A DNA stretch of 64,000 bases, taken from contig NZ_JAIMIC010000002.1 of assembly GCF_019966545.1 (NCBI RefSeq), positions 186,001 to 250,000 of the forward strand, in the 5' to 3' direction. The notes below the pieces were generated by a model. The model ran no database searches. It was not told where the DNA came from and worked only from the letters and a program-made list of their open reading frames with translations. The stretch is from Heliomarina baculiformis. Lineage in GTDB: Bacteria; Pseudomonadota; Alphaproteobacteria; Rhodobacterales; Rhodobacteraceae. Below, in pieces: positions 14,730 through 23,129 of the stretch (position 1 is its first letter; every line of letters starts with the position of its first letter). The position numbers and the translations under genes were made by a program.

Positions 14730-15275
14730 CTAGACCGCGTGACGCTGGCGGCGTCTTAGCGTTGCAAGACCGCCAATGCCCAGAAGCAGCGCGGGCAAAG
14801 TGGCTGGCAACGGCACGGCAGAAACGGCGGTTTCGATCTGTGCCGTAAACAGGGTGCCCGTTTCCATGAAAAAGCCGGTAAAATTAACCCTGAGCGTATC
14901 TGCCGTAAAGTTCAGCTTGGACTGGGTGAAATCTGCCGTGGAGGAAGACAACAGCGTGAAAGCGGAAAAGTCAGCAATTGTGTCACCAATATCAGTGAAC
15001 ACAAACTGACCAAAACCACTGGTGAACGCAGTCCGGTAGGGGCCATCATACCCGACCATGAGCAAGCCGGTCTCGGTGAAGTCAAAAGTGAAGGTGTCAG
15101 TTAAATAAACCGCAGTGGTCTCGACGCCGGGGCCGACGTTGAATGTCGGGTTCGAGATATCAAAGCCGGCATAGGCCGTAAGTGACATTTCGGCGCCGGA
15201 AAGATCCGCCGCACTGGCGGTGGATGATAGCCCGAGAGCAAGTGCGAAAGCACTGAATGCAGAGAGGAATTTCAT
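14730..15275 (-). CDS. VPLPA-CTERM exported protein
   Basis: 181 residues from the ATG at 15275; an in-frame extension precedes the signal peptide. The N-terminus (MKFLSAFSAFALALGL...ASA) is a Sec signal. The C-terminus has the tripartite sorting signal of the VPLPA-CTERM type: VPLPATLPALL motif, hydrophobic helix, then basic cluster RRRQRHAV. In this family such proteins are cleaved and sorted by an exosortase (XrtD in the VPLPA system), and they are often linked to exopolysaccharide or biofilm. The middle is Thr/Phe/Ser-rich and beta-strand-like (for example TDTFTFDFTETGLLM), as in other PEP-CTERM proteins. No exosortase is in this window. It stands alone. Confidence 0.85.
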   Translation of the reverse strand: MKFLSAFSAFALALGLSSTASAADLSGAEMSLTAYAGFDISNPTFNVGPGVETTAVYLTDTFTFDFTETGLLMVGYDGPYRTAFTSGFGQFVFTDIGDTIADFSAFTLLSSSTADFTQSKLNFTADTLRVNFTGFFMETGTLFTAQIETAVSAVPLPATLPALLLGIGGLATLRRRQRHAV

Positions 15276-15360
15276 GATAAGCGCCTTGTTGTTCGAAATG
15301 CGTTTGGCAGCCCGTTGCAAACGGTTCTTTACAAGGCAATGCTTAATCTGGAAACAATCT

Positions 15361-15387
15361 GTGGCACCGATGCGGGATCGGTGCCAC
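15361..15387 (-). terminator. Hairpin downstream of aspC
   Basis: GTGGCACCGAT (15361-15371) pairs perfectly with ATCGGTGCCAC (15377-15387) around a 5-base loop, 32 bp past the aspC stop on the minus strand. A weak T-containing tail (AGATTGTTTCC) follows. This is the likely aspC terminator, separating it from the VPLPA-CTERM gene. Confidence 0.7.
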
Positions 15388-15418
15388 GAGGTAGTCAGTA
15401 CCTGCAATAAATTGGATC

Positions 15419-18009: not shown

Positions 18010-18720
18010 TTATCCCGGTTCCCGGTTGCGCGGGCGCCGATCGAAACCGACGGCGCGGGGCGTCAGTTCACGTTCCAGCTTGCGCCGCATCGCGCGTTCG
18101 TAATCCTCGAAGCTCTGGGCAATTTCCAGGAATGCGCCGGGGCCGTAGATCACCGAATTGCGGTAAAAGCTGATCAAGGAGCGTTCGGCTTCGTAATCCG
18201 AGTTGTTCACGACAAGCCCGTTGACGGTGACATCGGCAAAGGGGAACTGGGCATAGGCCTGTTCGGGGCCGAAACCTTCGTTATTTATGCCGTCTCCGGC
18301 GATATCGATGGTGCGGAACAGGCAGGCGGGGGCACGGCTGAGCAGGCGCGCGCCATAGCCAAGCGCATAGCCCATCGCAGTCGGGAATTCGCTGTGACTG
18401 CGGTTGGAGACGCCGATAATGCTGGCCGCATTCAACAGATCCTCTCGAGTACCGATCAACTGCCAGTCGAGGAGCAGTTCCTGATTGTACCGGCCGCTCC
18501 ACTCAAAAACAGCCAGCGCCACCGGCACGTCCACCGCGAAAAAGGCGCGCTGCACCTCGGGCGAAAGCAGCGCGGCGGCAAGTCCCTTGCGCTGAAGCGC
18601 ATCCTCTTCGGCATTGACCGAAGAGGAGACATCAAGCGCGAGGACAAGGGCGAGCCTGCAATCCTGTGCCTTCGCCGCAAGCGGCAAGAGCAGCGAGAAA
18701 ACGCAGGCCAGCCGCCACAT
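18010..18720 (-). CDS. DUF1194 exported protein (VWA-like fold)
   Basis: 236 residues. A signal peptide (about 1-18, ending AKA) exports it. The mature protein begins with LALVLALDVSSSVN, the DxSxS metal-ion-dependent adhesion (MIDAS) motif of von Willebrand A-like domains, and a later DIAGDGINN fits the remaining MIDAS position. This is the usual layout of DUF1194, common in alphaproteobacteria and of unknown function; ligand or protein binding in the periplasm is likely. Its start overlaps the stop of the glyoxalase gene by one base (TAATG), so the two are coupled. Confidence 0.8.
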   Translation of the reverse strand: MWRLACVFSLLLPLAAKAQDCRLALVLALDVSSSVNAEEDALQRKGLAAALLSPEVQRAFFAVDVPVALAVFEWSGRYNQELLLDWQLIGTREDLLNAASIIGVSNRSHSEFPTAMGYALGYGARLLSRAPACLFRTIDIAGDGINNEGFGPEQAYAQFPFADVTVNGLVVNNSDYEAERSLISFYRNSVIYGPGAFLEIAQSFEDYERAMRRKLERELTPRAVGFDRRPRNREPG

Positions 18721-19148
18721 TACCAGTGTCCGGTATTGCTCATGGAAGCCCAGGGTTCTGCTGGTTCCCGGGAATCGCCGTTTTGCAGCAATTCGACCGA
18801 GACATTGTCGGGCGAGCGGACAAAAGCCATGCGCCCATCGCGCGGCGGGCGGTTGATCGTTACGCCATTGTCCATCAGATGCTGGCAGGTGGCATAGATA
18901 TCGTCAACGCCGTAGGCGAGATGGCCGAAATGACGGCTGTCATCGGGAAGCGCATCATCGCCATCCCAGTTGTAGGTAAGTTCCACGGGGCATTCCTCTT
19001 GTCCTTCGGGCGCCATGAAGACCAGCGTGAACCGGCCTTCTTCGCTTTCGTGGCGGCGGATTTCTTTCAGGCCCAGCAGCGCGTAGAACGCCATCGATTT
19101 CTCAAGGTCCTTCACGCGGACCATTGTGTGCAGATAGGTTAGCGGCAT
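18720..19148 (-). CDS. gloA: Glyoxalase I (lactoylglutathione lyase)
   Basis: 142 residues from the ATG at 19148; a long in-frame extension has no family similarity. It isomerises the methylglyoxal-glutathione hemithioacetal to S-lactoylglutathione in the cytoplasm. The four metal ligands of a Ni/Zn glyoxalase I are visible: H in YLHTMVRV, E in CPVELTYN, H in HFGHLAYGV and E in NVSVELLQ. The repeat of two beta-alpha-beta-beta-beta modules fits. It leads a two-gene unit with the DUF1194 gene. Confidence 0.88.
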   Translation of the reverse strand: MPLTYLHTMVRVKDLEKSMAFYALLGLKEIRRHESEEGRFTLVFMAPEGQEECPVELTYNWDGDDALPDDSRHFGHLAYGVDDIYATCQHLMDNGVTINRPPRDGRMAFVRSPDNVSVELLQNGDSREPAEPWASMSNTGHW

Positions 19149-19215: not shown

Positions 19216-20637
19216 TCAGAAGGTGGATTTGATCCCGAGGGCCAGCGAAAAGTCGCGTGCGGAGTAGATCGAGATATTCGAATCCGTCTTGCTGGCCTGC
19301 AGCGTGAGGGTCGGGGCGAAACCGGCGTAGTCGTATTCTTCAAAGAAAAAGGTCAGATCGCCGGCGATTGTCTTGTCATCGCGCGGCGCAAACACGACCC
19401 GCCCGAAAGCGTTGAGACCGGCTGCGATCAGGGGATAGTCGGTCGCGCCAAGGGCAAGCCCCGCGCTGACCCGTGCCGGACCCAGACGCTTGTCGAATGT
19501 CACCGTGCCGCGCAGGCTGGCCCCGCTGTACGTGCCGTTCATCGCCTGTGCCGAAACATCGCGCAGCGACAGGGACAGGCCAAGCCGGTTACCGCCCTGC
19601 AACCGGTGATCAAAGACAGCGGAGAGGCCGTAGACCCGCGCATCGTTCGCTTTCGATTTCGCCTTGAAGCGATCTTCGGCAAGGACGCCGAGGGTCAGGG
19701 AAGACGCTTCGGATAATGCCCATGTCCGGTCTCCGAAGAGACGCGCGAAATAGAAATTCCGGTCGCCGCCAAAGCGACTTTCGCCAAGGCTTGCAGAAAC
19801 GGATGCGAAGTTGCCCTCGCGCGGGTCGCCGATGGCAAAGGCGTGGCGCAGGGTCAGTTCGCCATAGGTCGAGCCGTATTTGCGACCGCTGACGCCGGGG
19901 GCGAGCGCCTCCGCGCTGTCTGACAGGGCGACGCGCGAAATATAGAGACGTCCCAAAAGGTAGGTTGCGCTTTGCCGGTCGCCGCGCAACCGGTAGCCCA
20001 GCATCGTATCGAGCGTTGCAATGACTCCGGAAAGCGCCACCGCATCGGCGGGGCGCAGGCCGTAATCGGGCTCTCCATCGATGGTGTTGTACCGGCTGGA
20101 CGAGCCGTTGTTCACATTGTCCGAGGGGCGCAGACCCGCGTTAATGGAAAAGCTCCACGGGTTGCGCTGGCGCAGAATGCGATAGTCGCGCGCGATCTGC
20201 TGCGAGACTTCTTTGCTTTCGGCGTGGATCGCGGTGCGGCGCAGCCAGATCTGGGCGAGGGTCGGACGACCTTCGGCATAGGACAGCTTGGCGGCCAATT
20301 CGGCAGCGCGCATCCGGTCGGAACCGATGTCGGTCAGCCGATAGGCGCGGGCGGCAGCACGTCGGCCATCGCGGTTGCGGTTCAACCCGGCGTAGGCAAG
20401 CGCCTGCATGTAATGGGCGACGGGGTCTTTTGGATTGGCCCTAACAAGTCCGGCAGACAGGCGCAGGGCCAGCGCGGGCTGGCCTGTTTCAAGCGCATGC
20501 CCCGCCAGAAGACGCGCCTGCGGGAGGGTCAGGGAAACCGAATTTTCAGCCGTCTGGGCCGGGGTCATGCCCGTGGCGAGAAAAACGCCAAGTGCGAGGC
20601 AGGCACCGGCAAGTCGTTTACGGATTGGGCTGGTCAC
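19216..20637 (-). CDS. Slam-type outer-membrane protein (DUF560), TPR plus beta-barrel
   Basis: 473 residues from a GTG at 20637; an ATG at 20649 would add four codons. Either start lies inside the 3' end of the lipoprotein gene. After a signal peptide (to about 30) comes a helical TPR-like part (about 40-150: HALETGQPALALRLSAGLVRA is one repeat). A beta-rich remainder begins NPWSFSINAGL, then DNVNNGS, which is the conserved junction of Slam/DUF560 proteins. The C-terminus ends in Phe, as in outer-membrane barrels. Slam proteins carry lipoproteins across the outer membrane in the type XI pathway. The adjacent upstream gene encodes a TbpB-like lipoprotein, the expected cargo. I am confident of the architecture, less so of the exact barrel strand count. 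Confidence 0.8.
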   Translation of the reverse strand: MTSPIRKRLAGACLALGVFLATGMTPAQTAENSVSLTLPQARLLAGHALETGQPALALRLSAGLVRANPKDPVAHYMQALAYAGLNRNRDGRRAAARAYRLTDIGSDRMRAAELAAKLSYAEGRPTLAQIWLRRTAIHAESKEVSQQIARDYRILRQRNPWSFSINAGLRPSDNVNNGSSSRYNTIDGEPDYGLRPADAVALSGVIATLDTMLGYRLRGDRQSATYLLGRLYISRVALSDSAEALAPGVSGRKYGSTYGELTLRHAFAIGDPREGNFASVSASLGESRFGGDRNFYFARLFGDRTWALSEASSLTLGVLAEDRFKAKSKANDARVYGLSAVFDHRLQGGNRLGLSLSLRDVSAQAMNGTYSGASLRGTVTFDKRLGPARVSAGLALGATDYPLIAAGLNAFGRVVFAPRDDKTIAGDLTFFFEEYDYAGFAPTLTLQASKTDSNISIYSARDFSLALGIKSTF

Positions 20638-21523
20638 ACAGCGGTGCATCGCCGGGTGTGCCGCATTTCGGCAGGACGAAGATGCCGTATTCGACTTCGT
20701 TCTGGACGCTGGTGATGTGGTTTTCGACATAGATACCGCCTGCAATCGTTGCCGCATCGTCGCCGCCAAATATACCGCCGTAGCTTCCGCGCACCTGCTG
20801 CTGGATCGACACGTCGCCGGCAAAAGTGCCCGAGGCCGGGTTGATCGCCGTCGGCGCGAGTTCCAGATCGACCATTTCCGTTCCCGGGGCGTCCACGTAG
20901 GTTCGGTCATAAATGATGCCGTTCACGGCGTTATCGGTGAAGTCGGCATTCACCAGAACCTTGCCCGTTACTTCTCCTGCCTGAACCGGCCTGACCGAGG
21001 TGGGCGTGCCCGGTGTCACAGGAAGCAGGTCACCGCCGTCGCCGGGACCGTTCAGTAAGCCGACGTAGCGTCCGGCATAGCTTGCCAGCCCGCCGCTGCC
21101 GGTCACCGATGGTGGATCATAGGCACCGGCGCGGCCATAGACGGCCCCGCCGAAGAAGTATTCGAACTGCCCGCCCGTCGTGACCACGGCGGCCCGGGTG
21201 CCGTCAATGTCACGCACATAGGCGGTTGTGTGCCGCGATAGGGAGCTGTCCTGCGTGGTGTAGGCCTCGTACCCGTTCCGGTCGAGCGCGGGTCGCCTGC
21301 TGTAGACGGCCTCGAATTCCTCGTTGTCGAGGGTGATGCCGCGTACGGTCAATGTCTGTGCGTCCGCATCGTAGGAAATGCCCTGAAGATCCTGCGCAAC
21401 TTCGGCGGGGACGCCCGTTTCTGGATCGTCCGTGTCCGTATCCTCGATGAAGGGGTTGCCGCCGCCGCTACCGCACGCGGACAACATGGTCGCTGCTGCG
21501 AGCCCAAGCCAATACCGTTTCAT
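20618..21523 (-). CDS. TbpB-like lipoprotein, probable Slam cargo
   Basis: 301 residues from the ATG at 21523. The signal peptide ends in lipobox LSAC, followed by a Gly/Ser linker (GSGGGNPF), as is usual for surface-tethered lipoproteins. The C-terminal half (about 225-275) shows SGTFAGDVSIQQ and GSYGGIFGGDDAATIAGGIY. This is the beta-barrel pattern of transferrin-binding-protein B-type domains, where a GxFyGp-A-E-x-GG motif recurs. It has two Cys near the end. The ligand is unknown, and no TonB-dependent receptor is encoded nearby, so iron piracy is not implied. The gene overlaps the Slam gene by 20 or 32 bp. Confidence 0.75.
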   Translation of the reverse strand: MKRYWLGLAAATMLSACGSGGGNPFIEDTDTDDPETGVPAEVAQDLQGISYDADAQTLTVRGITLDNEEFEAVYSRRPALDRNGYEAYTTQDSSLSRHTTAYVRDIDGTRAAVVTTGGQFEYFFGGAVYGRAGAYDPPSVTGSGGLASYAGRYVGLLNGPGDGGDLLPVTPGTPTSVRPVQAGEVTGKVLVNADFTDNAVNGIIYDRTYVDAPGTEMVDLELAPTAINPASGTFAGDVSIQQQVRGSYGGIFGGDDAATIAGGIYVENHITSVQNEVEYGIFVLPKCGTPGDAPLCDQPNP

Positions 21524-21795
21524 CTGCCTCAACCATTGTTAATCAGGTTTTTCGGTCAGAGTCGGGCGAGGCGGTGCAAAAGTCAACGTCGTTGCGATTC
21601 GAAACCCCGTGGCGTGGCCGATAAGTTACCTTTATCTTGTGGGTCTGGTGGGGTATGCGGACACATACAGTATGGTGGCGCGGATTTGCGCGTAAAGCTC
21701 AGGCTTTGCGATCCGGTGGAATCCTGTTTATCTGGCAGCGAAATTGAAGGCCGGATCGAATCCGTTCAGGCCGCGACCGAGACAGAGGAAATCAC

Positions 21796-22626
21796 ATGCG
21801 CCAATATCTCGATGCGCTCGAGACCGTTCTGAGCAAGGGAAACCGGTCGACCGACCGCACCGGCACCGGGACGATTTCCTATTTCGGGATGCAGTGCCGC
21901 TATCCTTTGTCGGACGGGTTCCCGCTGGTCACAACCAAGAAGCTGCACCTGCGATCGATCGTGCATGAACTGCTCTGGTTCCTCTCGGGTGACACGAACA
22001 TCGGGTACCTGAAGGAAAACGGTGTTTCGATCTGGGACGAATGGGCGGATAAAAATGGCGATCTGGGGCCGGTTTACGGCCATCAGTGGCGGCATTTCCC
22101 GACCATCCGCAAAGAGATCGACAGCAATGGCGAAGCGCGGCTCCAGATCGGCGAGGTCGACCAGATCGCCAAGCTTGTCGAGGCGATCCGGAAAACGCCC
22201 GACAGCCGCCGTCTGATTGTCTCGGCCTGGAATCCCGGCGAGATCGACGAAATGGCCCTGCCGCCCTGCCATACGCTCTGGCAGGTTCGGGTTGCGGACG
22301 GGAAGCTGCATCTGCAACTATATCAGCGGTCCGCTGATATGTTTCTGGGGGTGCCGTTCAACATTGCCTCATATGCGCTTTTGCAGGTGATGCTGGCCAA
22401 GGTTACCGGATATGAGCCCGGCGATTTCATACATTCGATTGGCGATGCACATATTTACTTGAATCATCTCGATCAGGTGCAGACACAACTTTCGCGAAAG
22501 CCATCCGCGTTGCCTACACTGCGTCTGACGCGGGATGTTACCTCTTTGTTCGATTTCAAATACGAGGATTTCGAATTCGTCGATTACAATCCTCAGCCGG
22601 GTATCAAGGCGCCGGTTGCGGTCTGA
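21796..22626 (+). CDS. thyA: Thymidylate synthase
   Basis: 276 residues, within the usual ThyA range. It methylates dUMP to dTMP using 5,10-methylene-tetrahydrofolate, producing dihydrofolate. Signatures: [11 protein letters not shown] for the N-terminus, active-site [12 protein letters not shown] (catalytic Cys), the [17 protein letters not shown] stretch and the C-terminal closing segment IKAPVAV. AGAGGA stands before the ATG. folA, which regenerates tetrahydrofolate from its product, starts two bases after the stop, a classic functional pair. Confidence 0.97.
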
Positions 22627-22628
22627 CG

Positions 22629-23129
22629 ATGATTACATTGATTGTCGCCCGCGCGGCCAATGGGGCCATTGGAAAAGATAACGATATTCCCTGGCACTGC
22701 CCCGAAGACCTTAAGATGTTTCAGCGCGAGACCAGCGGAGGCGCCATCATCATGGGCCGTTGCACATGGGAGAGTCTGCCGGTCAAGCCACTGAAAAACA
22801 GGATGAATTGCGTGATCTCGCGCGATGGGTCGGTTGCAGAGCATGTGTTCGGGGATGTGGCCGATGCAGTGCGGGCGAGCCAGGCGGCGGGTTATGGGCG
22901 TATTTACGGAATTGGCGGCGAGCGGATCTACCGGGCGCTGTTTCCATTCGCGCACAGGTTGATGATCACCGAGGTGGATATGACGGTAAAGGACGCGGAT
23001 GCATTCTTTCCGGCTTTTGAAGAAAACCACTGGCTGGAATTGTCGCGGCGGGAATTGGCTGTTTCGCCTTCTAAATTCACATTGCGGGAATTGATACGTC
23101 GCGATGTTGCCTCTGCCGAGAATGTTTGA
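22629..23129 (+). CDS. folA: Dihydrofolate reductase
   Basis: 166 residues. It reduces dihydrofolate to tetrahydrofolate with NADPH. The N-terminus MITLIVARAANGAIGKDNDIPWHCPED is the DHFR substrate pocket with the acidic residue in place, followed by IIMGRCTWESLP and the nucleotide-site IGGERIYRALFP. It lies two bases behind thyA and must be translated from the same message. The sequence is somewhat divergent in the C-terminal quarter but intact. Confidence 0.95.
   Translation: MITLIVARAANGAIGKDNDIPWHCPEDLKMFQRETSGGAIIMGRCTWESLPVKPLKNRMNCVISRDGSVAEHVFGDVADAVRASQAAGYGRIYGIGGERIYRALFPFAHRLMITEVDMTVKDADAFFPAFEENHWLELSRRELAVSPSKFTLRELIRRDVASAENV

Follow-up and report, generated by a model that had tools for sequence, protein, structure and literature searches.

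The 64,000-nucleotide stretch of the Heliomarina baculiformis genome analysed here (the window, in whose coordinates all positions are given) very probably carries a two-gene cassette of the type XI secretion system (T11SS), in which a Slam-like outer-membrane protein would display on the cell surface the lipoprotein encoded directly upstream of it, as judged from the sequences of both families and by analogy with Slam1 and TbpB. The sequence-only reading had presented the two genes as a pair standing alone. That they form an isolated and undescribed pair is not supported: a locus of this type, with genes for DUF1194, glyoxalase and thymidylate synthase, has already been published for Rhodobacteraceae and Roseobacteraceae under the name of marine cluster 3 T11SS (Grossman et al. 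2025, PMC12282271; cited throughout for the accessible part of its text). What is new here is not the kind of gene pair but the presence of a cargo gene directly upstream of most Slam matches, the delimitation of the unit to two genes and the shared divergence of Slam and cargo.

Organisation of the gene pair

Both open reading frames of the sequence-only reading, as well as the DNVNNGS junction, are present at their places, on the minus strand, which that reading had left unstated (Table 1). The cargo gene begins with ATG at 21523 and its stop codon ends at 20618, whereas the Slam-like gene, the stop codon of which ends at 19216, can start either with ATG at 20649 or with GTG at 20637, overlapping the cargo gene by 32 bp or 20 bp, respectively; with either overlap co-expression is likely, in keeping with the earlier view that the two proteins are made together. 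The lipobox pattern is found in 50 of 55 cargo loci, including that of the window, and 2 glycines of the motif GGIFGGDDAATIAGGIYVEN (G254 and G262) do not vary across the cargo alignment (52 of the 55 cargos; L039, L106 and L115 left out). Similarly, N178 and N180 of the DNVNNGS junction are invariant in the Slam alignment (51 of 55 proteins; L087, L095, L106 and L115 left out), in which the terminal phenylalanine is nearly invariant. By eye, the Slam-like protein has a signal-like start, and a rough beta-moment scan yielded 15 peaks on the C-terminal side of residue 160 and 5 on its N-terminal side. In front of the cargo gene, TTGAC is present in all 8 aligned upstream regions, that of the window included, with a partly conserved GGTNAC-like stretch further upstream.

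Table 1. Positions of the cassette, its predicted parts and the neighbouring genes in the window
Feature	Position	Strand	Basis and remarks
DUF1194 gene, vWA-like, neighbour	18010..18720	-	PF06707, 232.5 bits; MIDAS-type DVSSS by eye
Glyoxalase gene, site flank outside the system	18720..19148	-	PF00903
Putative Slam/T11SS outer-membrane protein gene	19216..20649	-	ORF, 477 aa
Predicted transmembrane barrel, Slam-like protein residues 165-477, last residue Phe477	19219..20157	-	Beta-moment scan; PF04575 of a relative
DNVNNGS junction, Slam-like protein residues 177-183	20101..20121	-	Conserved columns
TPR-like helical N-terminal domain, Slam-like protein residues 42-162	20164..20526	-	Low-confidence model; TPR_19 in relatives
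Putative cargo lipoprotein gene	20618..21523	-	ORF, 301 aa; upstream member of the pair
C-terminal two-cysteine tail of the cargo, Cys287 to Cys296	20636..20665	-	Sequence
TbpB/fHbp-type C-terminal barrel motif GGIFGGDDAATIAGGIYVEN, cargo residues 249-268	20720..20779	-	Conserved columns
Type II signal peptide, lipobox LSAC, predicted lipidated Cys17	21473..21523	-	Sequence pattern and eye
Intergenic region from which the cargo and ThyA genes diverge	21524..21795		TTGACTTTT at 21578-21586 (minus strand)
Thymidylate synthase ThyA, other site flank	21796..22626	+	PF00303
Dihydrofolate reductase (DHFR)	22629..23129	+	PF00186

Assignment of the two protein families

Taken singly, the window's proteins stay below the curated cut-offs. 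The Slam-like protein scores 18.7 bits against PF04575 (E = 0.0014; cut-off 22) and has only sub-threshold matches to TPR models, and the lipoprotein scores 15.4 bits against FHBP_C (cut-off 28.1) and 18.4 bits against slam_lipo (cut-off 80). Among the relatives, by contrast, PF04575 matches 32 of the 51 Slam family rows at E ≤ 0.001 (the window's row not being one of the 32), and when 5 chosen rows were scanned singly, 4 scored above the cut-off, the match extending across almost the full model in 3 of these; in the relative from locus L033 the match covers residues 160-451. TPR_19 matches 13 of the 51 rows, and of the 52 cargo rows, 5 match TbpB_B_D, 3 match FHBP_C and 7 match slam_lipo at E ≤ 0.001. 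Since the window's proteins fall below the cut-offs while their relatives match the barrel models, membership is transitive: there is a good case that the outer-membrane protein belongs to the T11SS/Slam family and a fair one that the cargo belongs among the barrel lipoproteins. A genome search with PF04575 produced no match in H. baculiformis and none in 14 control genomes either.

AlphaFold2 models, built from each window protein together with one near-identical relative (from L022), reached a mean pLDDT of 28 and 33, too low to read either fold, so that modelling confirms neither the TPR-plus-14-strand-barrel fold nor the TbpB-like barrel that the sequence-only reading had inferred; in the low-confidence model of the N-terminal part of the Slam-like protein, paired helices are seen (block pLDDT about 34-56). 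Neither window sequence, used singly, had a significant match in the PDB. Matches of the Slam family profile, to TPR and designed helical proteins, were confined to the TPR part of the profile, and the cargo family profiles gave nothing significant (best 2pma, E = 0.028), the motif part aligning to the fHbp chain 1ys5 at a non-significant E of 0.29.

The weak Pfam scores of the window's proteins speak for another reading, in which the Slam-like protein would be a TPR-porin without a secretion function and the lipoprotein would stay in the periplasm, and we know of no experiment on a marine cluster 3 T11SS. This alternative is nevertheless highly improbable, given the pairing of the genes in most Slam loci, their shared divergence (see below) and the matches of the relatives to barrel models. 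The pairing and the profile matches of the relatives support the original proposal of a Slam-type outer-membrane protein with an adjacent cargo lipoprotein.

Distribution of the pair

The Slam protein was found in 19 of 61 genomes searched, that of H. baculiformis counted, and since a lipoprotein-like gene lies directly upstream of every one of the 19 Slam genes (with a lipobox pattern in 18), the association is not due to chance. With the start codons of the relatives set by script (overlap limit 60 bases), the spacing in 18 of the pairs ranges from an overlap of 56 bp to a gap of 14 bp; in the 19th, L062, the Slam gene is cut off by the contig end. Of the named relatives, Phaeobacter sp. 22II1-1F12B is the nearest (96 percent in the Slam protein and 94 percent in the lipoprotein), and it was also the single relative that a scan of genome contigs gave.

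In 295 genomes of the family, the Slam profile matched 183 at E ≤ 0.001, a figure that takes in weak matches, and the cargo profile matched 136 at the same threshold. Among the matches listed, 146 Slam matches in 139 genomes covered at least 250 of the 466 profile positions, some of them being pieces of one gene at contig ends. The pair, which the sequence-only reading had suggested looking for in other members of the family, recurs there widely: among these listed matches, 128 of the 146 have a cargo gene directly upstream in the same orientation. Because 17 of the 128 paired loci had served to build the profiles, the count with those loci removed, 111 of 129 of the listed Slam matches, is independent of the profiles. 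From the 111 further Slam-cargo loci, 60 were drawn at random and 40 were taken. The other 18 of the 146 listed matches had no cargo match upstream; inspection of 17 of them (G158:C16 left out) showed that one, L071, has a weak upstream cargo match after all (E = 7e-6) and that another, L067, begins at a contig end. Collectively, these counts indicate that most T11SS proteins of the family have alongside them a probably dedicated lipoprotein drawn from a single protein family.

In 240 genomes drawn from across the class, relatives of the Slam protein at E ≤ 1e-15 were present in the H. baculiformis genome and in 9 others outside the family, and the cargo at E ≤ 1e-8 was present in the H. baculiformis genome only. 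Slam paralogues located away from the glyoxalase site (L064, L065, L066, L072 and L075) have other short lipoprotein-like genes nearby, several of them in opposite orientation; the cargo profile either misses these genes or matches them only marginally.

The chromosomal site and its neighbours

Relatives of the glyoxalase gene were found in 288 of the 295 family genomes at E ≤ 1e-40. The Slam set consisted of 57 loci, excluding L062, which lies at a contig end, and L024, which nearly duplicates L023. From the top entries of the glyoxalase listing, 40 Slam-less loci were selected by eye rather than at random, and genome G312 (L081), in which the cargo gene is kept, stands outside the Slam-less count. 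The distance between the glyoxalase and thymidylate synthase genes is 2.5-3.7 kb in all 51 measurable Slam loci (of 57), whereas of the 52 measurable Slam-less loci (of 56), it is below 400 bp in 42, 400-2300 bp in 8 and longer in 2. As the flank distance grows by the length of Slam and cargo alone, the unit comprises these 2 genes, and the data indicate that glyoxalase and thymidylate synthase are positional neighbours of the cassette site. Thymidylate synthase is present in 51 of 54 Slam loci and in 52 of 56 Slam-less loci, with no bias.

Some sites are only partly occupied. The cargo gene occurs without Slam in L081 and as a remnant in L154, Slam occurs without recognisable cargo in L069, L070 and L077 (Slam shortened), and in L082 the Slam gene is broken in two. 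Together with the empty sites, these loci suit a tentative scenario of repeated loss from an old site. In 3 Slam-less loci, L057 (G016), L159 and L139, about 2-4.5 kb separate the glyoxalase and ThyX genes and match neither profile; this DNA may hold remnants or other genes.

The thymidylate synthase itself varies. At 21796-23129 the window has ThyA and DHFR where most relatives, unlike the window, have the flavin-dependent ThyX: ThyX and ThyA were counted 31 and 6 times in 40 Slam loci and 29 and 9 times in 40 Slam-less loci. Beside the cassette, two thymidylate synthases that are unrelated to each other have been exchanged in place. Elsewhere in the window, at 14730-15407 (minus strand), a protein with a signal-like start and no Pfam match is encoded, the C-terminal tail of which we take to resemble PEP-CTERM.

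The third neighbour, DUF1194, requires separate consideration, since a role for this vWA-like protein as the real cargo or partner of the T11SS was considered possible from its co-occurrence, reported in 102 of 145 loci (PMC12282271). Our counts go some way in the same direction: among glyoxalase-holding loci, DUF1194 is present in 40 of 54 with Slam versus 32 of 56 without it (p = 0.073), and when a flank of 4.5 kb is required, in 38 of 49 versus 30 of 52 (p = 0.037). However, those 32 Slam-less loci carry the gene at the very same site, and MarR and AAT, two unrelated genes, are at least as strongly biased when the same flank is required (p = 0.007 and 0.024). Among loci that retain both of these genes, DUF1194 is found in 31 of 37 with Slam versus 16 of 26 without it (p = 0.076), a trend that does not fall to zero, and the shift in the distance between glyoxalase and thymidylate synthase is accounted for by Slam and cargo alone. 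We therefore consider it very unlikely that DUF1194 is the cargo or partner and regard it, less certainly than the two flanks, as mostly a positional neighbour with a modest trend remaining.

Shared divergence of Slam and cargo

Pairwise distances of Slam and cargo are correlated, with a coefficient of 0.63 over 38 of the 57 loci (partial correlation 0.62 given glyoxalase and MarR) and of 0.65 over 36 loci (0.64 given AAT), a level reached in none of 2000 permutations. Slam correlates with the neighbouring genes at 0.16, a level reached in 26 of 2000 permutations, and with AAT at 0.32 (1 of 2000). As measures of descent, glyoxalase and MarR serve poorly, because the correlation between their own distances is only 0.13. 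Linked inheritance alone suffices to explain the shared divergence of Slam and cargo.

The two-cysteine tail is present in 20 of 55 cargos, which cluster on the Slam tree (55 of the 57 loci, the partial L112 and L116 having been dropped): tail type, with 4 of the 55 tails unclassified and uncounted, changes 3 times on this tree compared with a mean of 16 after shuffling, and none of 500 shuffles gave so low a number. We considered the tail as an element recognised by Slam. However, the C-terminal and N-terminal halves of the cargo co-diverge with Slam equally (r = 0.568 versus 0.566; difference ≤ 0 in 515 of 1000 bootstraps), and such a role can therefore not be claimed. Information per alignment column in the N-terminal half of the cargo is likewise about equal to that in the barrel half. 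The cargos of cluster 1 T11SS have been described as having variable N-termini.

Comparison with known systems

From taxon and gene order, rather than from the authors' sequences, we infer that the window's locus is a member of marine cluster 3. The bacterial families are the same, and genes for DUF1194, glyoxalase, thymidylate synthase, DHFR, an aminotransferase, an HTH regulator and threonyl-tRNA synthetase are found nearby (PMC12282271). The locus differs in that further DUF560 domains were reported in 102 of 145 cluster 3 loci, compared with a single Slam gene here, and above all in the cargo, which appears scarce in the accessible account but lies here beside most Slam genes, among neighbours that are mostly positional. 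In that account, a domain search across cluster 3 found 0.21 cargos per outer-membrane protein and TbpBBD in 8 of 145 loci, whereas among 11 loci annotated by hand, 10 were predicted to encode cargo lipoproteins, with lengths of 282-375 aa (PMC12282271). Our counts fit the hand-made figure, and TbpB_B_D sees only 5 of our 52 cargo rows. In the consulted part of the literature on T11SS, Slam or DUF560, on Roseobacter and on DUF1194, we found no empty-site comparison of these loci, nor did we find a publication that names the surface lipoprotein assembly modifier together with Rhodobacteraceae.

Experimentally verified T11SS belong to cluster 1 only, according to the accessible part of the same source (PMC12282271). 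With Neisseria Slam1 and Slam2, which serve TbpB, LbpB, HpuA and fHbp, the window's pair shares a predicted two-domain Slam architecture and a putative lipoprotein cargo that bears a barrel-type motif at its C terminus, but the sequence similarity is remote and the TonB receptor partner is absent from the window. The NilB/NilC and HrpB/HrpC systems of Xenorhabdus likewise combine a T11SS protein with its own cargo nearby, NilC being a surface-exposed lipoprotein, although these are cluster 1 systems and HrpC is soluble and linked to haem (PMC8406197, PMC9100927).

By analogy with these systems, the lipoprotein would carry a type II signal peptide when synthesised, be exported by Sec and be lipidated on Cys17, and would cross the periplasm held by a chaperone, as proposed from Slam1 and TbpB. 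The Slam-like protein would contribute a periplasmic TPR domain and an outer-membrane barrel through which the lipoprotein could pass, to fold outside and stay lipid-anchored on the surface, as TbpB does via Slam1. Slam1 proteoliposomes take up TbpB without Bam, and the chaperone Skp helps (PMC9090332). For the window's pair, we infer the barrel folds, the translocation and the surface display from sequence and from this analogy.

Possible function of the cargo

A TbpB- or hemophilin-like co-receptor for iron or haem acquisition is one candidate, since roles in the uptake of iron or haem are common among known cargos with TbpB-type barrels. A TonB receptor gene is present in 120 of 185 Slam clusters (PMC5449769). 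The window's pair does not follow this pattern. As the sequence-only reading had held, it has no TonB receptor beside it: the genome contains 4 matches to PF00593, none of them on the 738-kb contig that includes the window. The same reading's description of the pair as standing alone holds for TonB receptors but not otherwise, glyoxalase, DUF1194, ThyA and DHFR being its neighbours. Furthermore, in the upstream regions of 49 cargo genes, searches with crude regular expressions detected no pattern resembling a Fur, Irr or Zur site (a loose RirA-like pattern in 5 of the 49 is too short to be informative and was disregarded), and cluster 3 lacks co-occurrence with TonB and with iron or haem genes in the accessible part of its description (PMC12282271). 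A co-receptor function is thus unlikely; nothing that we found points to iron as the function of the cargo, and the absence of TonB receptors from the contig and of iron-box patterns from the cargo upstream regions speaks mildly against it.

A tentative alternative, which we put forward as possible rather than probable, is that the family-wide cassette, at its fixed site and with its single cargo family, serves one shared non-iron surface function, such as binding of an environmental ligand or adhesion, and has often been lost but not swapped. In such a case, the cassette would keep a single cargo family, unlike host-associated T11SS with their variable cargos. Evidence against a single function comes from the differing N-terminal motifs, in 5 of 10 predicted cargo structures (PMC12282271).

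As far as its accessible text goes, the published account of marine T11SS treats cargo as scarce and looks for function in DUF1194, glyoxalase and the folate genes (PMC12282271). The comparison of loci presented here suggests instead that the Slam channel nearly always travels with its own putative cargo, the genes around the pair being for the most part bystanders. The paired lipoproteins would thereby provide a concrete set of cargos for work on surface display and ligands in these bacteria.
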